DNA of 41,863 nucleotides from an uncultured Methylococcaceae bacterium. Lineage in GTDB: Bacteria; Pseudomonadota; Gammaproteobacteria; Methylococcales; Methylomonadaceae. The stretch covers positions 1 through 41,863 of the forward strand of contig CAIZMK010000201.1 of assembly GCA_903934035.1 (NCBI GenBank). The letters are read 5' to 3'. Below the pieces are notes generated by a model, which did not search any database, was not told where the DNA came from, and was given only the letters and a program-made list of their open reading frames with translations. Below, in pieces: positions 19,656-35,528 of this stretch. Numbering within the stretch: position 1 is the stretch's first letter; each line of letters starts with the position of its first letter. A program made the translations under genes and the position numbers.

Positions 19656-22600
19656 TTAATCACCAAGATTAGCCGATTTAAGCCCCAACAAATGACTAAT
19701 ATCTAATAACAAGCCCACTTCACCGCTGGCAAGTAATGCACAGCCGGTTACGCCTTGTATCGATGCTAGATAGCCCTGCAGTGGTCTAATCAGCACTTGT
19801 TGTTGGCCTATCAGTTCATCTACGACTATTGCAAGTCGCTGCTGGTCACCTCGAACAATCACATACAAACCGCGTTGTGTTGGATATTGCAGAGCCTGAT
19901 CGTCATGTCGTCCTGCCAATAATTGTATGGGTATTAAATCCTCAGCCGATAAACGCAACATAGGCTTACCGCCATCTGCAGATACTTGCATCATTTGTTC
20001 GGCTTCAGAGCGAATGATGGTTTGAATGCCTTGAATAGGAATAACATATTGAACGGCATCAACACGCACTACCATGCCTTCCACTGCCACCATAGCCAAG
20101 GGCAGGGTGATTTGAAAGCCCGATGTCGTTGTTGCCAGTAGGTTGCCTCCTTGAATTTGGAGTTGCTGACGAATTTCGTTAAGTTGCTGCTCCATGATCA
20201 GATGGCCGTCAGATTTACTTTGCTGGTCATAAACAGCTGTCCCATCATCAAATACGCTCAATTTAATGTGGTCAACATAACGAACGAGTTGAATATTGAT
20301 TTGAACAACTGCAGGTTTTGAAAGTGCCTGTCGTTGCTCAGGTGTTTCTATTCGATGATTAATGCAAATCTGTAATAAACTTCGTAGTGGGATTTTGAGT
20401 TGCTCAACCATACTAAAATCTAACTCTATTTCATCACCACTCGTGGTTAAATTGACTTGTCGGTCAGCTTGTCGAGCCAGACCATCACAATAGGCCTGTA
20501 AAGGTTCTAGCAATAAAGCCGCAGGTCTCACGCGCAAACGAATGGCTTCGTCTTGCAAACGGTTGAGTAAGGCGGTGTGATGTGTTTCTAGTTGGATCAG
20601 CTTTTCTAATTGTTCCTGACTAGATTCTAAAACCTGTGTTACTGAGTTTTTTGCTAGATGCCATTGCTGTCCAGCATCATGAACGATAGTATCTACGGTA
20701 TACACTAAATCAGTCTCAAATAGATGGTTAAGCAGATGCTGGGCCATCGATTGGCCTGTGACCAGCTCGCCAATTATTTCCAGCATTTCACTCGACAAAG
20801 CACTTTGTGAAATAATACTTTCACTGTTCTCTTGTTGAGGATCGATTTCGGTATTGAGTGGTGGATTCATACTATCAATCAATACCGCTTCAAGCCTCAA
20901 TTGTTGGTTTGTGGGATCCAGCATGTTTAAGGCTAAAGTGATGGCTTTTTCAGGCAGGCTACTGGCGATAAAAAAATCGTATAAAGTTTCTTTGCCATCA
21001 TAAAAAGTGACATTGCTGATCACTTCAGCAGCACCCTCACTAATCCAAGTAATAAATTGGTCAGCTAAGTTTTCATCTTGATTCAAATCGGCGCGAATAA
21101 TATAGAACTGCAGGCCTTGTTCTAGGGCAGTTAATACCGTTTTAATGCTTTCTGGCGTTAAGATATTATGGAAGGAATTTGGCAATCCTAAGCGGGTTAC
21201 GATTTGCGACGATGATAAGCTGCCATTATTTTCAGGCGTTACCTCAGGGCTCACTTGTAACAACTGTTTAAGCTGCGCTCTATCGGGAGATTCATCAAAT
21301 TTTTCAGAGTCCAAAGCAAATTCAATATCGCTAATGAAGGACTGAGTGCTGCGTAATAACATGGTATCGACCGCTACGGCACCGATTTCAGCACGGCTGT
21401 ATAAATCTAACAAGGTCATGCAGAACTGTGCAGCAGTCTCTAGGCCAACATGCAAACAGGCATGATAAATTTGACGGAACAGCAGCATCATACGCTGGCA
21501 TTGAGCTGGCAGGTTTTCTTGGCGTTTTAGACGATCAACGACCAAGCACATGTCCAGCAAATTCTCAAATAAATGCTCAGCGCACCAATGCTGTAAGCAC
21601 TGACGCGGATTGATTGCTAAATCATTTCCATCAATAGCTAAGTTGTTGATGATAGTGCTTAGTTCGCTATAGAGATTAAACTCGAAAACTGGAAAATAAT
21701 TAGCAATCAAATCGTCGTCTTGATTTATTTCGCTAATTAATTGCTCAAGAACTTCAGTCAATCGAACAAAATGATGCGTTTCCGCAAGACTCATTAACTC
21801 TAAAGCTGTTGTTATAATGGCCTGCAAATTTTCTTGTTCGCCTAAAGCTAGCTTTAATTCCGATAAACGACTGAGAGGTGCTTGTAATTGTTGGAAGAAT
21901 TCTTGAAGGGGGGCATCAATAATGACTGGACTGTTTGTAGTGGTGTTTTCACTTAATGATGAAAAATCTTGAGCATATAGGTCCTGTAGGGCTTCAAAAA
22001 GGATTTGTGCAGATTCAACATCGGGCTCGGTTAAGCCGATAAAGTTGCCCATTATCATCGACCATTCGTGCATGCCCATTTGTTCAGCGGCATAGTGCAG
22101 TTGTTCGACTTCATCACTCAATAGCTTTAAGTCTCTTTGATTCAGCAGAATAGCTTGAATGTTCTGCAAATTATCTGCGGCTATTTCGCGAAAGATTTCA
22201 CGATAAACAGGGTCGTCAGCTAAGGCGCTGTTATCGATAGGCTCAAAAATGATAGATTCTTGCAAAACGGCTTGCTGCACATTATCAGTCGCTAAATCTG
22301 AGCTGCTTTGTGTGAGTGACAAGCGACAATCAGCGACTTTATCACTCAAGCGCTGGCACATTTCCGTCGCTAAGTGTGGGGGAGCATCTTGTTTTTTAGC
22401 AACTGATAATTCCAACATGCCGCGTAAACTATCAGTGGCTTCAAGCAATAAATCAATAATATCATTCGCTAAAACGACGCCATCATCACGCACTAAACCA
22501 ATCATGTCTTCAGAGTGATGCGCGACCGATTCTATCGCTGATAAACCCAACATTCGGGCATTACCCTTGTAGGTATGCATGGCACGAAATAATCGTGCAA

Positions 22601-22724
22601 TCGCTTCAGAGTTGTTGGGTGTTTGCTGCAAAATTAATAAGCAAGCCTCTATCTCGTCAAGCGATTGACCACCTTCTTCTGCATACAAGCCCCAAATTTC
22701 ATTAATATCCAAGTCATCGGACAT
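19656..22724 (-). CDS. CheA-type protein: N-terminal Hpt, long middle region, degenerate histidine-kinase core, C-terminal CheW-like domain (CheA3-like)
   Basis: Hpt LFRAMHTYKGNARMLGL (His50); degenerate P4 (LLQICINHRIETPEQRQALSKP; FDDGTAVYDQQ); CheW-like end VVRVDAVQYVIPIQGIQTIIR...VDELIGQQQVLIRPLQGYLASIQGVTGCALLASGEVGLLLDI. Confidence 0.88.
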   Translation of the reverse strand: MSDDLDINEIWGLYAEEGGQSLDEIEACLLILQQTPNNSEAIARLFRAMHTYKGNARMLGLSAIESVAHHSEDMIGLVRDDGVVLANDIIDLLLEATDSLRGMLELSVAKKQDAPPHLATEMCQRLSDKVADCRLSLTQSSSDLATDNVQQAVLQESIIFEPIDNSALADDPVYREIFREIAADNLQNIQAILLNQRDLKLLSDEVEQLHYAAEQMGMHEWSMIMGNFIGLTEPDVESAQILFEALQDLYAQDFSSLSENTTTNSPVIIDAPLQEFFQQLQAPLSRLSELKLALGEQENLQAIITTALELMSLAETHHFVRLTEVLEQLISEINQDDDLIANYFPVFEFNLYSELSTIINNLAIDGNDLAINPRQCLQHWCAEHLFENLLDMCLVVDRLKRQENLPAQCQRMMLLFRQIYHACLHVGLETAAQFCMTLLDLYSRAEIGAVAVDTMLLRSTQSFISDIEFALDSEKFDESPDRAQLKQLLQVSPEVTPENNGSLSSSQIVTRLGLPNSFHNILTPESIKTVLTALEQGLQFYIIRADLNQDENLADQFITWISEGAAEVISNVTFYDGKETLYDFFIASSLPEKAITLALNMLDPTNQQLRLEAVLIDSMNPPLNTEIDPQQENSESIISQSALSSEMLEIIGELVTGQSMAQHLLNHLFETDLVYTVDTIVHDAGQQWHLAKNSVTQVLESSQEQLEKLIQLETHHTALLNRLQDEAIRLRVRPAALLLEPLQAYCDGLARQADRQVNLTTSGDEIELDFSMVEQLKIPLRSLLQICINHRIETPEQRQALSKPAVVQINIQLVRYVDHIKLSVFDDGTAVYDQQSKSDGHLIMEQQLNEIRQQLQIQGGNLLATTTSGFQITLPLAMVAVEGMVVRVDAVQYVIPIQGIQTIIRSEAEQMMQVSADGGKPMLRLSAEDLIPIQLLAGRHDDQALQYPTQRGLYVIVRGDQQRLAIVVDELIGQQQVLIRPLQGYLASIQGVTGCALLASGEVGLLLDISHLLGLKSANLGD

Positions 22725-22767: not shown

Positions 22768-23175
22768 TTAGCTAAGTCCCACTAAACGACGCATAACTTC
22801 AGTTAATTCCAAACCACGAGCATCAACTAAATCTAAAGAAACTGCGCCGGAAGGTTTAGTCACAATCGCATCAGCACCTAATGCTCTGGCTTTAGCGGCA
22901 TAGGGTGAGCCGTCTAAAGCGACTGAAGATAAAATGATGACTTTGGCTTTGCTTTTCAATTTAGCATGACGTAAAAACTCTAAGCCATCCATTTCAGGCA
23001 TTTCTATGTCTAATAAAATTAGTGATAAATCTTTATGATTACTCAATTCTTCCAGGGCTTTTTTACCATTTTCAGCAAATGCCACAGCTCTGAAGTCAGG
23101 CATTTTGGTGACAAAGGTGCGAATGACCGAGCGCATCATTACTGAATCGTCAACGATTAATACTTTATGTTCCAT
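22768..23175 (-). CDS. Single-domain response regulator (CheY-like; receiver resembles that of CheB)
   Basis: VLIVDDSVMMRSVIRTF; LILLDIEMPEMDGLEFL; IVTKPSGAVSLDL. Confidence 0.92.
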   Translation of the reverse strand: MEHKVLIVDDSVMMRSVIRTFVTKMPDFRAVAFAENGKKALEELSNHKDLSLILLDIEMPEMDGLEFLRHAKLKSKAKVIILSSVALDGSPYAAKARALGADAIVTKPSGAVSLDLVDARGLELTEVMRRLVGLS

Positions 23176-23660: not shown

Positions 23661-25757
23661 TTAAAAATCTCCATAGCCACGTTCATCAGCATCCAGAGGT
23701 AAGATTGATTTAGGTGATTTTTTAGGGCTAGCTTTTGCTTTTGTTGTGTTTTCTGGTTTGTTAGTTGGTTCTGTAATGCTTTGTTGTGCATCAAGCAAGG
23801 CTTTTAATTGACGCAAAATTTCAGGGGTTAAACCTTCCAATCCTGGTATAGACATTGGAGCCTGTTGTACTTCACGTTCCCGTAATTTGAAGCGATTAAT
23901 TTCCTGACGCATTTGACCCGTCACAATACTCAATTCATCAGATGAAGAAGCTAGCTCTTCAGCTTGTTGACTGCTGCCTTCTGCGGTTTTCGCTACTTGA
24001 CTCATTGCAACGCTGATTTGCGACAGGCCACGAGATTGCTCGATACTGGCTGCGGCAATTTCTGCTACCAAGTCTTTGACTTTAGTAACGCCACCTACAA
24101 TTTGTTCCAATGATTCACGGGTTTGACTAACAATTGATACACCTTCAGTGACACGTTTGGATGAGTCTTCAATTAAGGTGGCTGTCTCCCTAGCGGCTTT
24201 GGCGCTGCGTCCCGCTAAATTACGAACCTCTTGGGCAACCACGGCAAAACCACGACCATGCTGACCAGCACGCGCTGCTTCTACTGCGGCGTTGAGTGCT
24301 AATAGGTTTGTTTGGAAAGCAATTTCGTCGATGACTTTAATGATTTTAGCGATATTTTGAGAGGCTTCATTAATGGAACTCATCGAATGAATCATGCTTT
24401 CCATTTTTTGCTGGCCTTGGCTTGCAGCTAAGGCCGCGTTAATGACCAGTTGGTTAGCCGCATTGGCGTTATCAGTATTAGCTTTAACTTGGCTATCCGT
24501 TTCTGCCAGACTGGCTGAAACTTCTTCTACAGATGACGATTGCTCTTCAGCTGTTGCAGCCATATTTTGTGAAGCCTGTTTTAATTCTTCTGAAGAACTG
24601 CCCACTTGTTCAGCGACACTATTAATCTCGTAGAAGGTTTTATTGAGGCCAACAAAGGCATTTTCAAAAGCATCCATAATGATGCGGAAATCACCTTGAT
24701 ATTGCAGTCGATCAACTGTTTGGGTTAGGTCACCATTAACTATAGATTGTGATAATGAGATGGCATCACCAATAATTTGTTTAAGATTGGCACGCAAAAT
24801 TTCTATAGTGTCATTAATAAAGGCTTTTTTTCCAGGGAATTTTTCTAAAGGCGCATCAAAGTTACCTTCGCCAAATTCAGCAACACAAGTAAGCGCTTTC
24901 TTCTTAGCTGAAATATGTGCAGCAACCATATCGTTGATGCCATTTGCTAATTCAATATATGCGCCTTTATATTTGCTGGTATCAATAAATACCTCGATAT
25001 CACCTTTGTCGTGTTCAATGGACATGTTTTTTAAATCGTCTAACAGTCCTTGAATTGTAGATCTCATTAAATCAGCACTCGCTTGCAAGATAGCAGCAGA
25101 ACCAGAACACAAAGCCGAATCGATCAAAGGTTTGCTCAAATCACCATTAGCTACGCCTGATAAAACATCGGAAATATTCTCTATCACTGAGACATCGCTC
25201 CATTCCACTAAAGAGCCTGTTCGTTTGCCATTAGTATCAAATAAAGGGGCTGCGACTAATTCAAAGACACGATTACCTAATCTGATTTTTGCGCTATGTT
25301 TGCCCTGAAGACTAGCAACCATGTGTTTTTGGTGAGCAGGATTTTTATGAAACAAATCCATGCTTTGGCCAATTAATTTTGACTGGTCAAAATGAGGCAA
25401 ATATTTTTTAATATCTTCTTCAGCTTGAGAAAACATAGTCACTAAAGAGGTATTCATGTAGGTAATGATATTATTTTCATCCGCTAACTGAATACAGCTA
25501 CTGAGATTATCTAATAATGATGTTTGTGTAGCATTTTGATTAACGGACATGGGGTTCTCCTGTTCAATTTGTATCAATGATTGCCTAGTCACTGAGACCT
25601 TTGATGGGTCTCGTTGTGGTCGGGCTTTTGTTTTCTTAATCGGGGCTGTTATGGATTCAGTGGGTGTATCTGGTGGCTCTACCGGTTTGACCCAATCTAA
25701 AGGATCATTCATTACTCGGCTGCGACTCGATGGTTTAGCGGGTTTTTTCTCAGTCAT
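23661..25757 (-). CDS. Soluble (cytoplasmic) methyl-accepting chemotaxis protein with PAS domain (TlpT-like position)
   Basis: Signalling hairpin [48 protein letters not shown]-like N-half; no TM segment. Confidence 0.93.
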
Positions 25758-26476
25758 TAGCCACGCTCCATAGAATAGTTCTCAAGTGCCAAGATGGTCT
25801 TAACCAATGTCGCATAATCTTCTGCGCCTGCAGACGTTGGTGCGTAGTCAAAAATGTTTTGGCCATAACCGGGTGATTCCGCTAGGCGGACGTTGTTGCG
25901 TATCACTTCAGCTAGCAAATTCTGTCCAAAGCGTTCAGTTAACCGCGCTCTGACCTCACGATGTACGACTAATCTGTCGTCATAACGGCATAACAACAAC
26001 CTTAGGCGCGACCAAGGAATATTTTCGATTTCCATGCGCTGCATTAAGCGACTGATGCCTTGCATGCTTAAGAACTCTGGTTCCATGGGTGTTAAAACCC
26101 AATCACAAAGCTGCATTAAACTTGCAACCTCAGGTGTCCACATGGGCGGTGCATCAATAATCACATAATCAGTTTGCGTTTTCAATGGTGTGTTTAATGG
26201 CCGTTGCAAGGGCGGATTGCAATCACCGGCAATTAATTGTAATTGTGCTGAAATAATTTCTGGTTGAAATTTCTGATTATCAGCCAACCAATGGCTAACA
26301 TTCCAAGGCAAGGTTTCAGCTCTCAAACCCATCGCCGCTGTTAAGTGGGTCTGCGGATCGAGATCAACTAAGGTAACGGTTTTGCCGCTGGCTTTTGCTA
26401 ATCCAGCACCTAAATTGAGTGCTGTAGTGGTTTTTCCTACGCCACCTTTTTGATTAAAAATTAAAATTTTCATCAT
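25757..26476 (-). CDS. ParA/MinD-family ATPase associated with the chemotaxis cluster (PpfA/ParC-like)
   Basis: Deviant Walker [30 protein letters not shown]; stop overlaps MCP start as TAATG. Confidence 0.9.
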
Positions 26477-26481
26477 TAAGC

Positions 26482-27033
26482 TTATCCAGCAATGACTGCT
26501 GATTCCAAGGCGCTATGTAATTCGATAGCTTGATTGGAAGCTAATTGTTCAATATCAAGAATAATGGCTACTTTGTTTTTTTGTTTACCAAAACCTCGTA
26601 TCACATTGTTTTCGTTGAAACGGCTAGGTAAATCAATGTTGCTTTCGGGAATCTCGATGACTTCTCGGACATAATCAACGACTAGACCAATCATGACATT
26701 ATCAATATCCAAGACGATTATCACGGTGCGTGGTGTATAAGTTTTAGCTGTCATACCAAAGCGCAAACGAATATCCATGATAGGAATGACTTTGCCACGA
26801 AGATTAATCACGCCTTTAATAAAGTTAGGCACATCCGGCACTTCCATGATGCGCTGCATTCCCACGACTTCTGTGACATAGCTAATGCCAATTCCGTATT
26901 CTTCACTAGCAACCCCAAAGGTTAAATACATATCCTCGATATTGTCTTCGTCATTAAACACCAAAGTGGTGCTTTCGTATTCTGAGTCATAATCTGGAAT
27001 ATCGCTAGTTGTCGTATCTGACATATCTGACAT
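26482..27033 (-). CDS. cheW: Chemotaxis coupling protein CheW
   Basis: YLTFGVASEEYGIGISYVTEVVGMQRIMEVPDVPNFIKGVINLRGKVIPIMDIRLRFGM; start MSDMSD preferred. Confidence 0.94.
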   Translation of the reverse strand: MSDMSDTTTSDIPDYDSEYESTTLVFNDEDNIEDMYLTFGVASEEYGIGISYVTEVVGMQRIMEVPDVPNFIKGVINLRGKVIPIMDIRLRFGMTAKTYTPRTVIIVLDIDNVMIGLVVDYVREVIEIPESNIDLPSRFNENNVIRGFGKQKNKVAIILDIEQLASNQAIELHSALESAVIAG

Positions 27034-27043
27034 ATCAACCTCT

Positions 27044-28126
27044 TTAATTATTACTAATGTTTGAATTAAGCGTGGGTCGGCGGACGAAGGCATTCATTAA
27101 CATTGCTGGGATTTGTTCCAGTGCTACCATGTTTTGGGCGCCGCCCAAATTATAAGCGACTTGTGGCATACCAAACACCACTGAGCTGGCTTCGTCTTGC
27201 ACAACGGTGCTGCCACCTGCACGAAATATAGCCAACATACCTTCAGCGCCATCTTTACCCATGCCAGTTAATATGGCAGCAGCGGCATTAAAACCAGCAG
27301 CTTTAGCGACTGATTGGAATAATACATCCACTGCTGGTCGGCTATAATTAACTGGTTCACCGTCGATCAAGGCGATTTTATATTGGCCACCAGAGCGTTC
27401 AATGATCATGTGTTGATTTCCACCCGGTGCTAAAAATACATGTCCTGGTAAAATTCGATCGCCATGTTCGGCTTCTTTGACTTGCATAGAACACAAGCCG
27501 TTGAGGCGTTCAGCGAAACTAGAGGTAAAGCCACCTGGCATGTGCTGCACAATGACGATGCCGGGCGCATTAGCTGGGAAAGCCGGCATTATTCGGGCTA
27601 AGGCTTCTACGCCACCGGTAGAGGTACCAATAGCAATAACTTTATCGGTAGTTTCGCCAATATTGGCAACGGGTTCTATGTCTCTGCGGCTTGAGTTACG
27701 CTTGAAATGATTGACATTAACTTTAGAAGCCGCTTTGACTCGCTGATTAATCTCTGTGAGTAATTTGGGTAGTTCATCGACCAAACCCAATTGTGGTTTA
27801 GAAATAACATCTACCGCACCAGATTCTAAGGCCTCTAAGGTAATGCGTTCACCTTCTTGAGTTAAAGAACTGATGATGACGGTTGGAATTGGCATGATAG
27901 GCATAAAGCGCTTAAGAAAGGTAATGCCATCCATGCGCGGCATTTCTACATCCAGAGTCATGACGTCAGGCTCAAGTTCAATCATTAAATCTCTAGCGAT
28001 ATACGGGTTTGCTGCCTCACCGATCACTTCAAGTTCAGGGTCTTTACGCATGCCGTCGGATAAGATTTTTCTTACTAAAGCAGAGTCATCGACAATCAGC
28101 ACGCGAATGGGTCTTTTGCTGATCAT
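27044..28126 (-). CDS. cheB: Protein-glutamate methylesterase/glutamine deamidase CheB
   Basis: Receiver VLIVDDSALVRKIL; catalytic GTSTGGVEAL, VIVQHMPGGFTSSFAERL, GMGKDGAEGM; start MISKRP preferred. Confidence 0.95.
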   Translation of the reverse strand: MISKRPIRVLIVDDSALVRKILSDGMRKDPELEVIGEAANPYIARDLMIELEPDVMTLDVEMPRMDGITFLKRFMPIMPIPTVIISSLTQEGERITLEALESGAVDVISKPQLGLVDELPKLLTEINQRVKAASKVNVNHFKRNSSRRDIEPVANIGETTDKVIAIGTSTGGVEALARIMPAFPANAPGIVIVQHMPGGFTSSFAERLNGLCSMQVKEAEHGDRILPGHVFLAPGGNQHMIIERSGGQYKIALIDGEPVNYSRPAVDVLFQSVAKAAGFNAAAAILTGMGKDGAEGMLAIFRAGGSTVVQDEASSVVFGMPQVAYNLGGAQNMVALEQIPAMLMNAFVRRPTLNSNISNN

Positions 28127-28941
28127 GAAAAAGGTTTCCAATAAATGCCGTTATCAATAAGTTGCCAGCGTGATTCAAGGTCACGTAAAGAAACAGTGAC
28201 GCTAGTTAGCATCCAGCCACCGGGTTCTGTTACATCATAAATGGCTTCAATAATTTGTTTTTGCTGGGCTTTGTCAAAGTAATACAAGACATTACGACAA
28301 AATACGACATTAAAATTACGCTGAAAAGGGTAGGGGTGATTTTTTAAATTAAGACGGCGAAAGGTGCAAAGTTGACGAATTTCAGCTTTGACTTGATAGC
28401 GGTCATTTTCCAATTCATCAAAATAGATTGGAAGCAGGGTGGTCGGCATTTTATCGATATGCATCATGCCATAAACCGCTTTTTCAGCTTCGGCAATCAC
28501 TACCCCGCTAATATCGGTTCCTAAAATAGCTAAGTGGTGTTTTGCCCAACTTAATCCTCGTTTTTCAGCAGCAATCATGGCCAAGGTATAAGCTTCATCA
28601 CCCGAAGAAGCGGCGGCGCTCCAAATCCTTGCGCCTTCAACAGGCAAATTTGGAAGGATATGGTTTTGGAAATAATCCAGTACCTGAGGTTCGCGAAAAA
28701 AATAAGTATGGTTGGTCGACGCTGCATGGATAACGGCATTAAGTAATTCGTTATCAGCACCTAGCGCCAAACGATCAGCTAAGGTGCCAAGATCAGGAAT
28801 TTTGTATCGATCACAAACACTTTGCATACGATGAATGAGTAATTCGCGTTTTTTTTCGGGGAACACCATGCCGCAACGTTGTTGTAGCCAGTTACCTATG
28901 CGTCGAAATTCTAGGTCGTAAGGCAAAGATGCGGAGCTCAT
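28123..28941 (-). CDS. cheR: Chemotaxis protein methyltransferase CheR
   Basis: TNHTYFFREPQVLDYF; IWSAAASSGDEAYTLAM; FNVVFCRNVLYYFD. Confidence 0.95.
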   Translation of the reverse strand: MSSASLPYDLEFRRIGNWLQQRCGMVFPEKKRELLIHRMQSVCDRYKIPDLGTLADRLALGADNELLNAVIHAASTNHTYFFREPQVLDYFQNHILPNLPVEGARIWSAAASSGDEAYTLAMIAAEKRGLSWAKHHLAILGTDISGVVIAEAEKAVYGMMHIDKMPTTLLPIYFDELENDRYQVKAEIRQLCTFRRLNLKNHPYPFQRNFNVVFCRNVLYYFDKAQQKQIIEAIYDVTEPGGWMLTSVTVSLRDLESRWQLIDNGIYWKPFS

Positions 28942-30164
28942 AGTGCTTGCCCTGCTTTCAATTCTTCATGATCTAAAATGATAGCCACTTCACCGGTACC
29001 TAATAAGGCACAGCCATGACTAGCTCGAATATGTTCTAATTGACCTTGTAAAGGTTTCATAACCACTTGTTGTTGGTCATAAATCTCATCTACTGGCAAG
29101 CCGATCAAACCATTTGAGGTTTTGAATACGACGATGACTAAAGTCTCTAAAGGCGCTAATTGTTGGAAATCTTCACCATAAAAACGTTCCAGTCGACAAA
29201 TAGGTATCAATTCATCTTGAACTCGTATCATCTCTCCGCCGTTGTTTGCGGCTACAGAGCTAATTTGATGTTGCTCTGGACGAAACACCTTATCAACGAC
29301 ACTAATGGGTGTTGCATAAAGTCTAGTTCTGATGCGCATGACTAAGCTATCTAAAAAGGCCAGTGACAAGGGAATAGATAATTTGACCTGTGTGCCTAGT
29401 CCCGTTTGGCTATTAACGCTAATATGGCCGCGCAAACTTTTCATGGTGGCATTTAAAACATCCATGCCCACACCACGTCCTGATAAATTAGTTACGGTTT
29501 CGGCGGTTGAAAAGCCGGGTTGAAAGATAACTTGCCATAAACGCTGGTCGTCAGGTTCTTCAGCAACACCCATCAAACCACGTTCGCGAGCTCGGCTAAG
29601 GATTTTGTCGCGATGCAGACCTTTACCATCATCAGCAACAGTGATTTGAATGTCGCCGCCCAGTTGCACAGCGCTTAAGGTGATTTTGCCAGTTTCTGGT
29701 TTGCCTAAGGCAAGACGTTCGCTGGGAGATTCTAGACCATGATCGGCGGAGTTTCTTAGTACATGTACCAGTGGTTCATAGAGTCTATCGGCAACGACTT
29801 TGTCTATTTCGGTTTCTTCGCCTTCTAATACTAATTCTATTTTTTTGTTTGTTTGTCTTTCTAGTTCTCGAACCATACGGCGCATTCGACGAAAGACTTC
29901 TCCGATAGGTACTTGACGTAATTCAACGGCAGCATCTTGCATTTCGTTTAATAGCATTTGCAAGCGATGGGCTGAATTAGAAAAATCAGGTAGATCAAGA
30001 TCTTTTAAATCAGGGCAGTGAATAACTTCACCCACACCTAAGCTTAATTCGCCAACCAAATCCATCAGGCGATCGACTTTATCGATTTGAATTCTCAAAA
30101 AAGTGGCTTGATTATCGGAGGTCAGCGCTTCTGCTGTATTTGGGTTAATGTTTGAAGCACTCAT
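28938..30164 (-). CDS. CheA-type histidine kinase lacking Hpt (P3-P4-P5 only; CheA4-like)
   Basis: Starts at the dimerisation domain (VDRLMDLVGELSLGVGEV); intact N box VLRNSADHGLESP, DDGKGL, GRGVGMDV; C-terminal CheW-like domain; no Hpt His motif. Confidence 0.93.
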   Translation of the reverse strand: MSASNINPNTAEALTSDNQATFLRIQIDKVDRLMDLVGELSLGVGEVIHCPDLKDLDLPDFSNSAHRLQMLLNEMQDAAVELRQVPIGEVFRRMRRMVRELERQTNKKIELVLEGEETEIDKVVADRLYEPLVHVLRNSADHGLESPSERLALGKPETGKITLSAVQLGGDIQITVADDGKGLHRDKILSRARERGLMGVAEEPDDQRLWQVIFQPGFSTAETVTNLSGRGVGMDVLNATMKSLRGHISVNSQTGLGTQVKLSIPLSLAFLDSLVMRIRTRLYATPISVVDKVFRPEQHQISSVAANNGGEMIRVQDELIPICRLERFYGEDFQQLAPLETLVIVVFKTSNGLIGLPVDEIYDQQQVVMKPLQGQLEHIRASHGCALLGTGEVAIILDHEELKAGQAL

Positions 30165-30549: not shown

Positions 30550-31164
30550 TTATAGGATAATTGTTAAATACTCTTTAAGCATCAAGTTAAAATAGTTAAA
30601 GGTTTGATTTGCGCTATCAAGTGCTTGTGTACATTGCTCGGGTTGGTCTGATAAGGTTTCGATGAAGCTAATAAAATCTTGCCAGTTCTTTTGCGTTTCT
30701 TCTCCGTAGCCGTAAAAAAAACGTCCACCCTTTGTTTGATTTAAACCATGATGTTTTTCTAAGGATCGCGCTATAAGTTGAGCACCTAAAGTCGAGCCTT
30801 CAACGACATACAACACGCCAATCAATTGTCCGATGCTATTAATGACAGGATTTTTTAAACTAGGCGCTGCTTGCAATGGTGCGATATTTAAATAGCCTAA
30901 ATCTTGTTTAATTAAAGGCCACTTTAACCGGCTGTGATAATCAAAGTTAGCATCATACTGGGCTATAAAGTGAATAATTTGCTCTTCTAATACTTGATAA
31001 AGCCGGTCATAAGCTAATAACAATTTATAGTAATTTTCTATCGGATAATCTGCTTGCATCAGTCCGCTTAGCAAAGGATGATTATTGAGTTGTGTATGCT
31101 GATGATGAGTTGCCTCACGCAGTTTAGCTCTGAGACTTTCAGGCATAATAGGCTTTAACGACAT
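30550..31164 (-). CDS. Heme oxygenase (biliverdin-producing, BphO-like)
   Basis: LREATHHQHTQLN; LYVVEGSTLGAQLIARSLEKH; immediately downstream of a bacteriophytochrome gene. Confidence 0.88.
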   Translation of the reverse strand: MSLKPIMPESLRAKLREATHHQHTQLNNHPLLSGLMQADYPIENYYKLLLAYDRLYQVLEEQIIHFIAQYDANFDYHSRLKWPLIKQDLGYLNIAPLQAAPSLKNPVINSIGQLIGVLYVVEGSTLGAQLIARSLEKHHGLNQTKGGRFFYGYGEETQKNWQDFISFIETLSDQPEQCTQALDSANQTFNYFNLMLKEYLTIIL

Positions 31165-31172
31165 AAATATAA

Positions 31173-34100
31173 TTAGCCTCGTAAGCTAAGGTCGCGCCAA
31201 ACAACTTGTATAAATTCTTCGTTATTTAATTGGGTTTTAGTTAGCATGACTTCAACCAATAACTCAGAACCATCAAAGCGTAAATGCGTCCATTCAAAAC
31301 AATGATAACCATTTTGTTTGGCTATTTCGTTCATTGCTTTAGCTTTCTCATCTGATAGACATCCGTCAGGTTGTAAGGTAGGAGATACTTCACTAGGATG
31401 TTTGTTAATAAAGTTCTCTTTTGATGGGTAGCCCAATATCTTTAAGGTGGCTTCATTACATTCGATAAAACGATCATTTTTAATGATCATTATCGGATCG
31501 GTCATGCCTTCAAAAAGATGTTGATAATCAAAGATACTTGTAGTGGCTAAAGACCATGATGGATAAGGATTCCATTCTTTTATCCATGTAGCTAGCTGAG
31601 TAGCTGTCATAGGTTTTGCGATTGCAAATCCTTGTGCAAACTCACAACCTAGGCTTAATAATATTTCACCCTGCTCAACGGTTTCAACCCCTTCGGCAAT
31701 GACTTGTTTTTCCATGCCTAAGGTTAAATTAATGATGTTTTCCACTAATTTTAAGTTTTTGTCCGATTCGGTCATATCAACTATAAAGCTACGATCTATT
31801 TTTAGTGCTTTTATAGGTAATTCTTTTAGATAGGTTATGGAAGAGTAGCCTGTACCAAAATCATCTAAAGCAAAATCAATGCCCATTTCTTGGCATTCAC
31901 TAATAATCTTGGAGACAGTTAATCGATCATCGAGTGCGGTAGTTTCTAAAATTTCAAGTTCTAAGCTACCCGCTCTATAGTATGGTTGGCGCGAAATAGC
32001 GTTTTGTAATTTGTCAACAAAGTTTGTTTGGTATAACTGTCTAGGGTCGATATTAATACTAATGCTGGTTTCTATGCCTTGTTCATTCCATACACTGAGT
32101 TGTTTTAAGGCGCTATCAATAACCCAATTACCCAGTTCTATGCCTAAAGGATGATTTTGCACGATGGGTAAAAAGAGTGAGGGTCCTATTTGACCAGTGT
32201 CTTTATTCCAGCGGATTAAGGCCTCAAATCCCAAGACGTCACCGGAACGCATATTAACTTTGGGCTGGTACAGTAATTCAAATTCGCTTTGATCTAAGGC
32301 CTTTTTAATGGCATCAATAGCATTGTTACGAGTAATGATGGCTTGGTCTTGAGTGCTATCAAAGAAATGAAAGCAGTTTTTACCCTGATTTTTAGCGACA
32401 TACATGGCTTGATCGGCATGGCTTAAAAGAGTTTTAGCATCGGCATCTTCAGCGATGATGTCGTTAGGGTAGAGGCAGACACCAATACTGGCAGATACTT
32501 TTAAGGCTACGCCTTCTAATAAAATGTCAGAGTTACAAACTTTTAATAAGCTGATGATAGGCCCTTCATGGTCGTGTTTAGTTGTCAAACCATCTAATAT
32601 GACGACAAATTCATCGCCGCCTAAGCGTGCTAAGGTGTCACTATCACGAATGTTTAGTTTTATTTGATGACTGATAGCCACCAAAAACTTATCACCTATC
32701 GCATGACCATAATGATCATTGATAGCTTTAAAACCATCCAGATCAACAAATAATACTGCAAAAAAACCACCATAACGTTTAGTTCGACTGATGGCATTTT
32801 CTAGTCGATCGAGTAATAGCAATCGATTAGGTAAGCCGGTTAAATTGTCATAATAAGCAATTTTTTCATAATGTTGGCGCTTATTGATAATGTCGGTAAT
32901 ATCACTACCCACTGCTAAATAGCGCTGTGGCTTACCTCGACTATCAAATATTACAGAGATAGTCGTCATTATGGTTGATAAATTACCCGCTTTGGTGCGA
33001 TTAATGAATTCGCCCTGCCAAAAACTTTCGGTATTCAATTTTTGCCACATGTGGGCATAAAAGCTGGTGTCGTGCATACCTGATTTAAGTATACTGATAT
33101 TTTGTCCAACGACCTCATCTCGACTGTAGCCGGTTAATTCACAAAAGCGTTGATTACAATCTAAAACAATACGATTGAGATCGGTGCTATAGATAATCTC
33201 ATGGGCCACATTAAAAAAATCTAGAGCGGCTTTGGAGTTTCTAAGGTCGGTAATGTCAATGCAGGTTCCTACATAGCCAATGAATTCTCCCTCAGCAGAT
33301 TGTTGAGGAACATAATGTCCATCTAGCCAGCGATATTTACCATCGGCACGTTGTAAGCGAAACTCAATATGGAAGTGTTCTCGACGATCAAATAATCGAT
33401 TATAGTTACTCATAAAAGCATCACGATCTTGGGGATGTATGCCTTTAAGCCAACCAGCTCCTTGTTCGATAAAGTAACTTCGACCGGTGAATTTTAACCA
33501 ACTCTTGTTGAACCAAAAAAGATTTTTATGAACATCCGCTTGCCATATTAAGGCCGGAGTCACATCAGAGAGTTCCCGAAAACGTTTCTCAGATTCAACT
33601 AGGTTGTCTTTCATTAGCTTATGTTCGGAAATGTCTCGCTGAATACCGACATAGTGGCTTAATTGATTTTGCTTATCATAAATGGGTGAAATAGTGAGTT
33701 CATTCCAAAAGCTTGTACCATCCTTTCTATAGTTTAAAATTTCACCGATAAAAGATTGTTGTTCAGTTAATGAATCCCTGATTGCTTGAATATGATCTGG
33801 GTCGGTTTCTGGACCATGCAACATTTTGCAATTTTTGCCAAGTATTTCTTCCTGACTATAGCCTGTTAATTGTTCAAAGTCTCTATTCGCGAAGGTGATT
33901 CGTTTGAAGGGGTCTGTAATGATGATGCCTGTAGGTACGGCATTTAACAGCTCAATATGAGAGTGTTGAGTGTCATTGAGTAGATTTTCTAAATGTAAGC
34001 TATGTAGAAAAGTAGATAGTGATGCCTGGAAGAAATGAGCGAATTTTATCTTTTCTTTAGGCCAGGGTTTACACCGACCATGCGACGTTTCGGACCATGT

Positions 34101-35528
34101 TTCAAATGATTTGCGAGGTGTTAGATGAAACTGATCGTCAGTATGCCTTAAGCCTTCGGTGTTAGTTCCCGCCCAATTAATTTTACGTATTTTTTCTTGG
34201 CGTAACCAAATGATGCAATTTTCCATATTGCTAGTATGTCGTATAGCCAGTATGCCAGCAGCCTTATCTGAATAAGCCTCAGCTTCTATGAGTGACTTAG
34301 AAAGATGATTACACACATAAGGTTCGTCTCCCATATTAACGTTAAGCCAATCTAGTAAGCTGGTAATGTCATTTTGAGTGGGTGTGATCCCTGCTAGAAA
34401 ACGCATATTGTCAACGATAACGATAATGCCGGTTGCGTTAAACAGACTCATTAATTCTGGCAGTGTTTTAGAGGTATCTATAGCCGATAGTTTGCTTAAT
34501 TTAGCAATGGTTTTTATATTCACATCCAAGGCTTTATGGGTCAAACTTTGGTGTTTAAGGAGTCCCTTCATGGCTAGTTTTAAGCTAACTAGCTGGCTTA
34601 TTAAATGCGCTGCCTTGCGCATAGGTAAGGAGATTCTTTTAGGTGTGAGATGATGGCATGCGATCAATCCCCAAAGCTTGCCATTTTGCAGTAAAGAAAT
34701 GCTTAGGGTTGAAGTGACTCCCATATTACGCAGATAAGTGATGTGTATGGGCGATAAGCTTCGTAACGTAGAATAACTCATGTCCAGAGCTTCGTTGCTA
34801 ACTGGGTTGAGTTTGGGAATTATAGATACAGGTATGGCATCGATATCAGTCACACCTCTTACTAAATTTTGCGTGTATAGCTTTCTAGCTTGTTCAGGAA
34901 TGTCGCTGGCTGGAAAGTGAAGGCCTAAATAGTCAGTGACTAGTTCAGTGCGACTCTGGGCTATGACTTCACCGTCCCAGTATTCATCAAACTTGTAAAT
35001 CATGACATTGTCATAAGCTAATATCGATCGAACAGTTTGTGCGATATGGTCAAAATAGCTAGTTAAAGTCTTTTTCCCATCATCCTCAGGGAGTAGTTCT
35101 TGAATTTTTGATAACAGTTCGGTTAAGTTTTCCGAGGCCTCTAAATGACTATCATTACTTAATTCAAGTACAGGAAATTCATCTGATAGATAAACATGAG
35201 CATCCAGTTTGTTAAAATTGGGGCTAATAAAGTCAATAACCCCCATTGCAGTATTTGTATTGGATAGTTGGGCAGTAGCAATTAGTTGGTTAACTTGAGC
35301 AGCAGCCTTTGCTCCTATGACACTATGCAAAGGTTGATCTAGGGCTAGGTCAGCAGAAATTTTTAATAATTCTTCCAAGTTATCGCTGGCTTGAATAATT
35401 GAATGAACTGGGTTAGTGTTTAGAACGAGAGCAATCCCATGTGGTTGAATCGTACTTAATTTATGAATAGGCTCAGAGGCACATTGTTCCATTGCCTGCT
35501 TTAAAGCTAAATCAGAGTGTTCAGTCAT
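31173..35528 (-). CDS. Bacteriophytochrome with LOV-like PAS, additional PAS, GGDEF, EAL and C-terminal PAS domains
   Basis: Cys16-x2-EPIHKLSTIQPHG; GAF DIPEQAR; PHY PRKSF; LOV-like GKNCKMLHGPETDP...LNYRKDGTSFWNEL...GIQRD; RDSDTLARLGGDEF; FEALIRW, DDFGTGYSS, EGVET. Confidence 0.93.
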   Translation of the reverse strand: MTEHSDLALKQAMEQCASEPIHKLSTIQPHGIALVLNTNPVHSIIQASDNLEELLKISADLALDQPLHSVIGAKAAAQVNQLIATAQLSNTNTAMGVIDFISPNFNKLDAHVYLSDEFPVLELSNDSHLEASENLTELLSKIQELLPEDDGKKTLTSYFDHIAQTVRSILAYDNVMIYKFDEYWDGEVIAQSRTELVTDYLGLHFPASDIPEQARKLYTQNLVRGVTDIDAIPVSIIPKLNPVSNEALDMSYSTLRSLSPIHITYLRNMGVTSTLSISLLQNGKLWGLIACHHLTPKRISLPMRKAAHLISQLVSLKLAMKGLLKHQSLTHKALDVNIKTIAKLSKLSAIDTSKTLPELMSLFNATGIIVIVDNMRFLAGITPTQNDITSLLDWLNVNMGDEPYVCNHLSKSLIEAEAYSDKAAGILAIRHTSNMENCIIWLRQEKIRKINWAGTNTEGLRHTDDQFHLTPRKSFETWSETSHGRCKPWPKEKIKFAHFFQASLSTFLHSLHLENLLNDTQHSHIELLNAVPTGIIITDPFKRITFANRDFEQLTGYSQEEILGKNCKMLHGPETDPDHIQAIRDSLTEQQSFIGEILNYRKDGTSFWNELTISPIYDKQNQLSHYVGIQRDISEHKLMKDNLVESEKRFRELSDVTPALIWQADVHKNLFWFNKSWLKFTGRSYFIEQGAGWLKGIHPQDRDAFMSNYNRLFDRREHFHIEFRLQRADGKYRWLDGHYVPQQSAEGEFIGYVGTCIDITDLRNSKAALDFFNVAHEIIYSTDLNRIVLDCNQRFCELTGYSRDEVVGQNISILKSGMHDTSFYAHMWQKLNTESFWQGEFINRTKAGNLSTIMTTISVIFDSRGKPQRYLAVGSDITDIINKRQHYEKIAYYDNLTGLPNRLLLLDRLENAISRTKRYGGFFAVLFVDLDGFKAINDHYGHAIGDKFLVAISHQIKLNIRDSDTLARLGGDEFVVILDGLTTKHDHEGPIISLLKVCNSDILLEGVALKVSASIGVCLYPNDIIAEDADAKTLLSHADQAMYVAKNQGKNCFHFFDSTQDQAIITRNNAIDAIKKALDQSEFELLYQPKVNMRSGDVLGFEALIRWNKDTGQIGPSLFLPIVQNHPLGIELGNWVIDSALKQLSVWNEQGIETSISINIDPRQLYQTNFVDKLQNAISRQPYYRAGSLELEILETTALDDRLTVSKIISECQEMGIDFALDDFGTGYSSITYLKELPIKALKIDRSFIVDMTESDKNLKLVENIINLTLGMEKQVIAEGVETVEQGEILLSLGCEFAQGFAIAKPMTATQLATWIKEWNPYPSWSLATTSIFDYQHLFEGMTDPIMIIKNDRFIECNEATLKILGYPSKENFINKHPSEVSPTLQPDGCLSDEKAKAMNEIAKQNGYHCFEWTHLRFDGSELLVEVMLTKTQLNNEEFIQVVWRDLSLRG
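33609..33971 (-). other. Putative LOV (FMN-binding PAS) domain within the phytochrome (about residues 520-640)
   Basis: Cys567 (codon 33828-33830) in NCKMLHG; Asn/Asn/Gln flavin-contact positions in LNYRKDG, FWN and GIQ. Confidence 0.65.

Follow-up and report, generated by a model that had tools for sequence, protein, structure and literature searches.

The window analysed here, a stretch of DNA of 41,863 nucleotides (positions 1-41,863, forward strand, of contig CAIZMK010000201.1 in assembly GCA_903934035.1), comes from an uncultured Methylococcaceae bacterium with the GTDB lineage Bacteria; Pseudomonadota; Gammaproteobacteria; Methylococcales; Methylomonadaceae. It contains a cluster of chemotaxis genes in the order cheA4-cheR-cheB-cheW-parA(ppfA)-soluble receptor-cheY6-cheA3, all on the minus strand and mostly overlapping or tightly spaced. 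The cheA4 gene (28938-30164) encodes a CheA4-type kinase with domains P3, P4 and P5 and no P1 (Pfam HATPase_c, E 3.6e-15). The Pfam-assigned CheR (28123-28941), CheB (27044-28141) and CheW (26482-27093) are followed by a PpfA-like ATPase of the ParA family (25757-26476; Pfam AAA_31/CbiA) and by a TlpT-like chemoreceptor (23661-25757) with PAS, HAMP-like and MCP signalling domains (Pfam), which is soluble, having no transmembrane segment (maximum 19-residue hydropathy 1.05). The response regulator at 22768-23175 is of the CheY6 type: its only PDB chain matches at E<=1e-20 are to CheY6 (3KYJ_B, 9.7e-44; 3KYI_B, 1.3e-42), and it keeps Met13, one of the two residues that set CheA3-CheY6 specificity (PMC2817712). 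The last gene (19656-22724) encodes the 1022-residue CheA3-type protein that is the subject of what follows.

The Rhodobacter (Cereibacter) sphaeroides operon cheOp3 has the same gene composition (PMC3964821, PMC7277832), and the same gene order is found in a genome (L079) with a P1 98% identical to 3KYI; the shared composition and order identify the window cluster as an R. sphaeroides-type split CheA. The L079 ParA in the equivalent position is 48% identical to that of the window, and the two CheA4 proteins are 61% identical. As the sequence-only reading had it, the window CheA4 keeps every ATP-binding motif intact; it is the ortholog of R. sphaeroides CheA4, and no difference of kind was found between them. 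The gene order is common to Methylococcales, Rhodobacteraceae and genomes of a family provisionally labelled Beijerinckiaceae-like. Directly upstream of cheA4 and on the same strand (30550-35528) lie two ORFs, one coding for 204 residues and by eye heme-oxygenase-like, the other for a 1451-residue, by eye phytochrome-like protein with PAS, GGDEF and EAL-like sequence; the whole of the former and the last 200 residues of the latter occupy the equivalent place at L053. The genome also has a gene for FliM, so that flagellar output is possible, and one for CheZ (G000:C135:4331-4909, on contig C135 close to a further CheA locus), a second CheY-P phosphatase.

The CheA3-type protein, an ortholog of R. 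sphaeroides CheA3, is built in the order P1, helical middle, P2-like, P3', P4', P5, and is 33% identical over about 815 residues to the CheA3 of the R. sphaeroides-like L079 genome. Its P1 (Hpt) domain (residues 10-101, 22422-22697, minus strand; Pfam Hpt, E 3.9e-11) finds R. sphaeroides CheA3 P1 as its top PDB match (3KYI, E 1.5e-31) and has the phospho-acceptor His50 in HTYKGN (22575-22577, minus strand), an H-x-x-K-G motif that is retained in every relative having an N terminus. The middle region (residues 111-640, 20805-22394, minus strand) is conserved across the CheA3 family. It matches no Pfam family, and in an AlphaFold2 model with pLDDT 70 it consists of helical bundles followed by one P2-like alpha/beta domain (about residues 501-625), where R. 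sphaeroides-type CheA3 has two further Hpt-like domains without the histidine and a P2-like domain. A Foldseek search with this region gave nothing significant, the best relevant match being 2LP4 (P1-CheY/P2; E 0.16). In the CheA3 proteins at L045 and L046 (1342-1350 residues; from the same genomes as L055 and L054) the middle contains repeated copies of a helical unit (NDPxYRELF...), which has thus been multiplied in some lineages. In Candidatus Methylobacter oryzae (L049, 5024-8258) a frameshift or an error of assembly breaks cheA3 at about residue 410 into two ORFs that overlap.

The P3-like dimerisation hairpin (residues 641-727, 20544-20804, minus strand) is degenerate as in R. sphaeroides-type CheA3: it matches Pfam H-kinase_dim only below the cut-off (E 0.032), and it is lengthened, spanning 92-94 residues in 23 of 23 CheA3 proteins (92 in the window) as against 58 in nearly all CheA4, the window's own included, so that one shared four-helix dimer bundle may not form. 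The CheW-like P5 (Pfam CheW stretch, residues 882-1013, 19686-20081, minus strand; E 8.9e-15) closes the protein.

Between the hairpin and P5 lies the segment designated P4' (residues 728-878, 20091-20543, minus strand). The sequence-only reading had seen a P4-like segment inside this Hpt-bearing CheA, and so it proved; the interval that it gave, 20080-20460 on the minus strand, spans the segment but is out of frame if taken literally. Pfam HATPase_c (PF02518), which recognises the adjoining CheA4, has no match in CheA3 even at E<=1, but phmmer against PDB chains aligns residues 746-834 with T. maritima P4 (1I58; E 9.8e-8), and residues 722-834 align with the P4 of several CheA structures. Profile comparison (hhalign) of P4' from the window and other Methylococcales with the CheA4 family gives 99.4% (E 5.4e-21) over 186 columns, the full length. 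Both results put the likeness to P4 far above chance. The structure prediction that had been suggested as a check bears this out, yielding a GHKL-like fold: the AlphaFold2 model of residues 722-878 from 14 sequences has pLDDT 86.7 and pTM 0.81, and CheA P4 domains fill the first 31 places among its Foldseek matches in the PDB (E 6.7e-13 to 5.3e-9), with other histidine kinase ATPase domains ranking after them. Sequence, profile and predicted fold thus point to descent of residues from about 728 to 878 from a CheA P4 (GHKL ATPase) domain.

The catalytic motifs are another matter, and here the original description stands in each particular. Of the peptide quoted in it, ELDFSMVEQ starts near residue 767 and GFQITLPLAMV occupies residues 869-879 (20088-20120, minus strand). 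The former N box (residues 783-793, 20346-20378, minus strand) reads LLQICINHRIE in place of the canonical LLRNxxDHGIE, its Asn replaced by Ile and its Gly by Arg; the former G1 box (residues 824-830, 20235-20255, minus strand) is VFDDGTA, with Ala for the last Gly; and the F box, the lid and the G2 box are deleted. A congener from a different assembly (L036/L053) has the same lid deletion in different local sequence, and the deletion is therefore not an assembly error. Compared with canonical CheA P4 (T. maritima 1I58, E. coli 6S1K/8C5V), the window domain shares the predicted GHKL fold and recognisable sequence over residues 722-834, but without N box, F box, lid and G2 it is not a kinase domain by motif. 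P4' thus appears to have lost its ATP site and is predicted to be catalytically dead.

A degenerate P4 (HATPase_c) in R. sphaeroides CheA3, following a duplication of the core, was reported in 2023 (Microbiol Spectr, PMC10782961), and the proposal that the CheA3-like partner is a full CheA with a decayed core is accordingly not new, well supported as it now is by profile comparison, predicted fold, graded relatives and the order P1...P3-P4'-P5. The window and R. sphaeroides proteins have that order in common, as well as the loss of the ATP motifs and the partners CheA4, CheY6, PpfA and soluble receptor. They differ in the extent of erosion: R. sphaeroides-type CheA3 has lost the N-box helix (23-24 residues versus 35) and has a lid reduced to 21 residues, while the window keeps the helix and has a lid of 32. 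The suggested comparison with R. sphaeroides CheA3 gives a close match between the two kinds of P4' profile (99.9%, E 1.5e-32, 138 columns), but the R. sphaeroides-type profile reaches CheA4 directly only over its first half (94.7%, 103 columns). The window's family, matching both, therefore serves as a bridge. The further idea that the middle region of CheA3-type proteins descends from P4 is right for its last part; the helical (pseudo-Hpt-like) segments and the P2-like domain that precede P4' have no place in it.

The 2023 survey treats CheA3 and CheA4 as unique and as emerging early in the evolution of Rhodobacteraceae, the only family reported (PMC10782961). With the full window protein as query, matches at E<=1e-60 occur in 13 of 251 genomes of Methylococcales, and those loci of this kind that have a named record belong to Methylococcales, for the most part to MAGs. 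In a sample of 399 genomes of the phylum the sole further full-length match is in G187; G1587, of the same Beijerinckiaceae-like family, is a second genome with CheA3. The R. sphaeroides P1 as query is found in 6 of 219 genomes of the family of G083, which is taken to be Rhodobacteraceae on the strength of the 98% P1 match. Weak profile matches in seven other genomes (G679, G692, G754, G963, G1214, G1467 and G1503) were rejected as CheA3, N box, G1 and G2 all being intact; these are ordinary CheAs that have a P2-like region in common with CheA3. The split CheA is thus sparse but crosses classes, and is more widely distributed than the family previously reported; the orthologs in Methylococcales and Beijerinckiaceae-like genomes imply that the split is older than the Rhodobacteraceae or has moved between classes. 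This wider distribution and the series of intermediates that comes with it are what is new here.

The series can be followed motif by motif in 17 CheA3 proteins from outside the Rhodobacteraceae, 6 from within and 14 CheA4. The N box is intact in all 14 CheA4; its Asn is present in 0 of the 17, and the Rhodobacteraceae CheA3 proteins, 6 of 6, have lost the remainder of the box as well. All 17 keep DDG, and 16 of them DDGxG, the window (DDGTA) being the exception. The lid, measured by counting the residues that separate the G1 Asp pair from the next GG strand, is 66 residues long in CheA4. In most non-Rhodobacteraceae CheA3 it has 49-59 (52-59 in most Methylococcales), in L062 and the window pair 32-33, and in Rhodobacteraceae no more than 21. 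On a CheA3 tree computed without P4 the short lids require three changes, two of them forced by starred branches, and the window pair is grouped with long-lidded sister sequences at 100/99, which makes the lid loss of this genus separate from that of the Rhodobacteraceae. Repeated loss of the lid, in at least two to three lineages of which the window's is one, is the history that these counts and branches favour. The less eroded Methylococcales proteins are the missing intermediates connecting an almost unrecognisable segment of R. sphaeroides CheA3 with P4; constructs based on them would allow the remaining function of a dead P4 to be probed in smaller steps.

The term vestigial, as applied to P4' by the sequence-only reading, goes too far, and sits poorly with the retained GHKL core and with the pattern of substitution. 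Between the window and its congener dN/dS is 0.24 in P4' (0.27 in the lid), 0.03 in P1 and 0.08 in P5, with zero nonsynonymous changes in P3; in two other pairs the P4' value is 0.08 (L057/L056) and 0.07 (L055/L054), and values below 1 signify constraint without saying which function is constrained. Nonsynonymous changes between window and congener nevertheless concentrate in P4' (19 in 333 sites versus 7 in 1088 in P1, P2-like, P3 and P5; Fisher p 9e-8), but part of this excess is mutational, since synonymous changes are likewise enriched there (p 0.005). P4' is under purifying selection, with a relaxation that is local and recent.

These considerations make it likely that the window protein is the CheA3 half of a split CheA whose P4' is dead and is kept, most plausibly, as a link in the array. 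In R. sphaeroides, CheA4 phosphorylates the P1 histidine of CheA3, CheA3 is a CheY6-P phosphatase (PMC2817712, PMC3591291, PMC6829392), and P1 hands its phosphoryl group to CheY6 (PMC2817712, PMC3591291). By analogy with that biochemistry, the CheA4 encoded at 28938-30164 would use ATP to phosphorylate His50 of CheA3 P1 in trans, the phosphoryl group would pass to the adjacent CheY6-type regulator, and CheA3 may also act as its phosphatase. P4' would then be a structural link, holding P3 and P5 in the geometry needed by the chemoreceptor array, and would shrink where selection allows: by the lid in the window's genus, by the lid and the N-box helix in Rhodobacteraceae. Pseudo-histidine kinases such as DivL (PMC9430884) offer a parallel, a histidine-kinase-like protein put to a use other than its own kinase reaction, although DivL belongs to a different family and pathway and CheA3 still has a predicted usable phospho-acceptor Hpt domain. 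A literature search for CheA pseudokinases found nothing.

Where this pair of proteins came from is a question for the trees. Maximum-likelihood trees of P3-P5 place CheA3 next to CheA4 with support of 92/77 (73 rows) and 67/77 (87 rows, omitting OG_L140, the CheA3 of G1587), and a tree of P5 alone, which is free of the decay of P4, also pairs them (93/87). The trees agree with an origin of CheA3 and CheA4 by duplication of one CheA core, and may be read in that sense, although support for the sister relation is never strong and long branches meet. The same features leave some room for another origin of CheA3, in which an unrelated full-length CheA was recruited to the operon and lost its kinase afterwards, a history compatible with the mechanism just given: bootstrap support of just 67-93% for the sister pair would allow it, and single-protein alphaproteobacterial CheAs have a P2-like region in common with CheA3. 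The pairing that persists in the P5 tree argues against it, and such an origin is considered unlikely. The trees of CheA3 and CheA4 both group the Rhodobacteraceae, L052 and G187/G1587 sequences, a pattern that fits joint movement of the two genes. An AU test of the gammaproteobacterial sequences as one clade in the CheA4 tree gives p 0.30, which is compatible with transfer between gamma- and alphaproteobacteria in either direction. In R. sphaeroides the cheOp3 genes sit in the fla1 flagellar locus, for which an ancient gammaproteobacterium has been proposed as the source (PMC7277832), and this makes a gammaproteobacterial origin of the whole module a testable idea.

A pure scaffold would not strictly need the DDGxG that 16 of 17 non-Rhodobacteraceae CheA3 have kept. 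Its retention could mean that P4' is a working regulatory pseudo-ATPase with the G1 aspartate pocket preserved, binding adenine nucleotide or another ligand without Mg or hydrolysis and switching the CheY6-P phosphatase, all the more as DDG persists in 17 of 17 after loss of the N box in every one and as purifying selection on P4' is strong in the relatives. In bifunctional histidine kinases, moreover, the catalytic domain often affects phosphatase activity. Yet the window itself has DDGTA and has lost lid and G2 box, Rhodobacteraceae lack the N-box helix as well while R. sphaeroides CheA3 is a published active phosphatase, and the DDG turn may be structural; the proposal is improbable. Its stronger form, in which P4', with its G1 pocket kept but N box and lid gone, has been put to new use as a domain that binds a ligand without hydrolysis or has a regulatory role, and so gates the CheY6-P phosphatase activity of CheA3, is slightly more doubtful still, although a dead kinase domain would, were it true, have become the control element of the opposing reaction. 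That P4' is truly vestigial, a leftover without a function of its own and on its way to being lost, is equally hard to credit, because the concentration of nonsynonymous changes (p 9e-8) and the loss of the lid in at least two to three lineages are countered by an omega of 0.24 (0.07-0.08 in relatives) that is not near 1, by a dS raised in P4' too, so that part of the excess is mutational, and by a P4 sequence core that is alignable in every member and keeps its GHKL form in the window model.

One natural variant may bear on the phosphatase. In the fragmentary genome G1587 (L093, 833-3208) a CheA3 of 792 residues is missing the equivalent of window residues from about 274 to 637, the helical and P2-like portion, and retains P1, P3, P4' and P5; this deletion could help to locate the phosphatase within CheA3.
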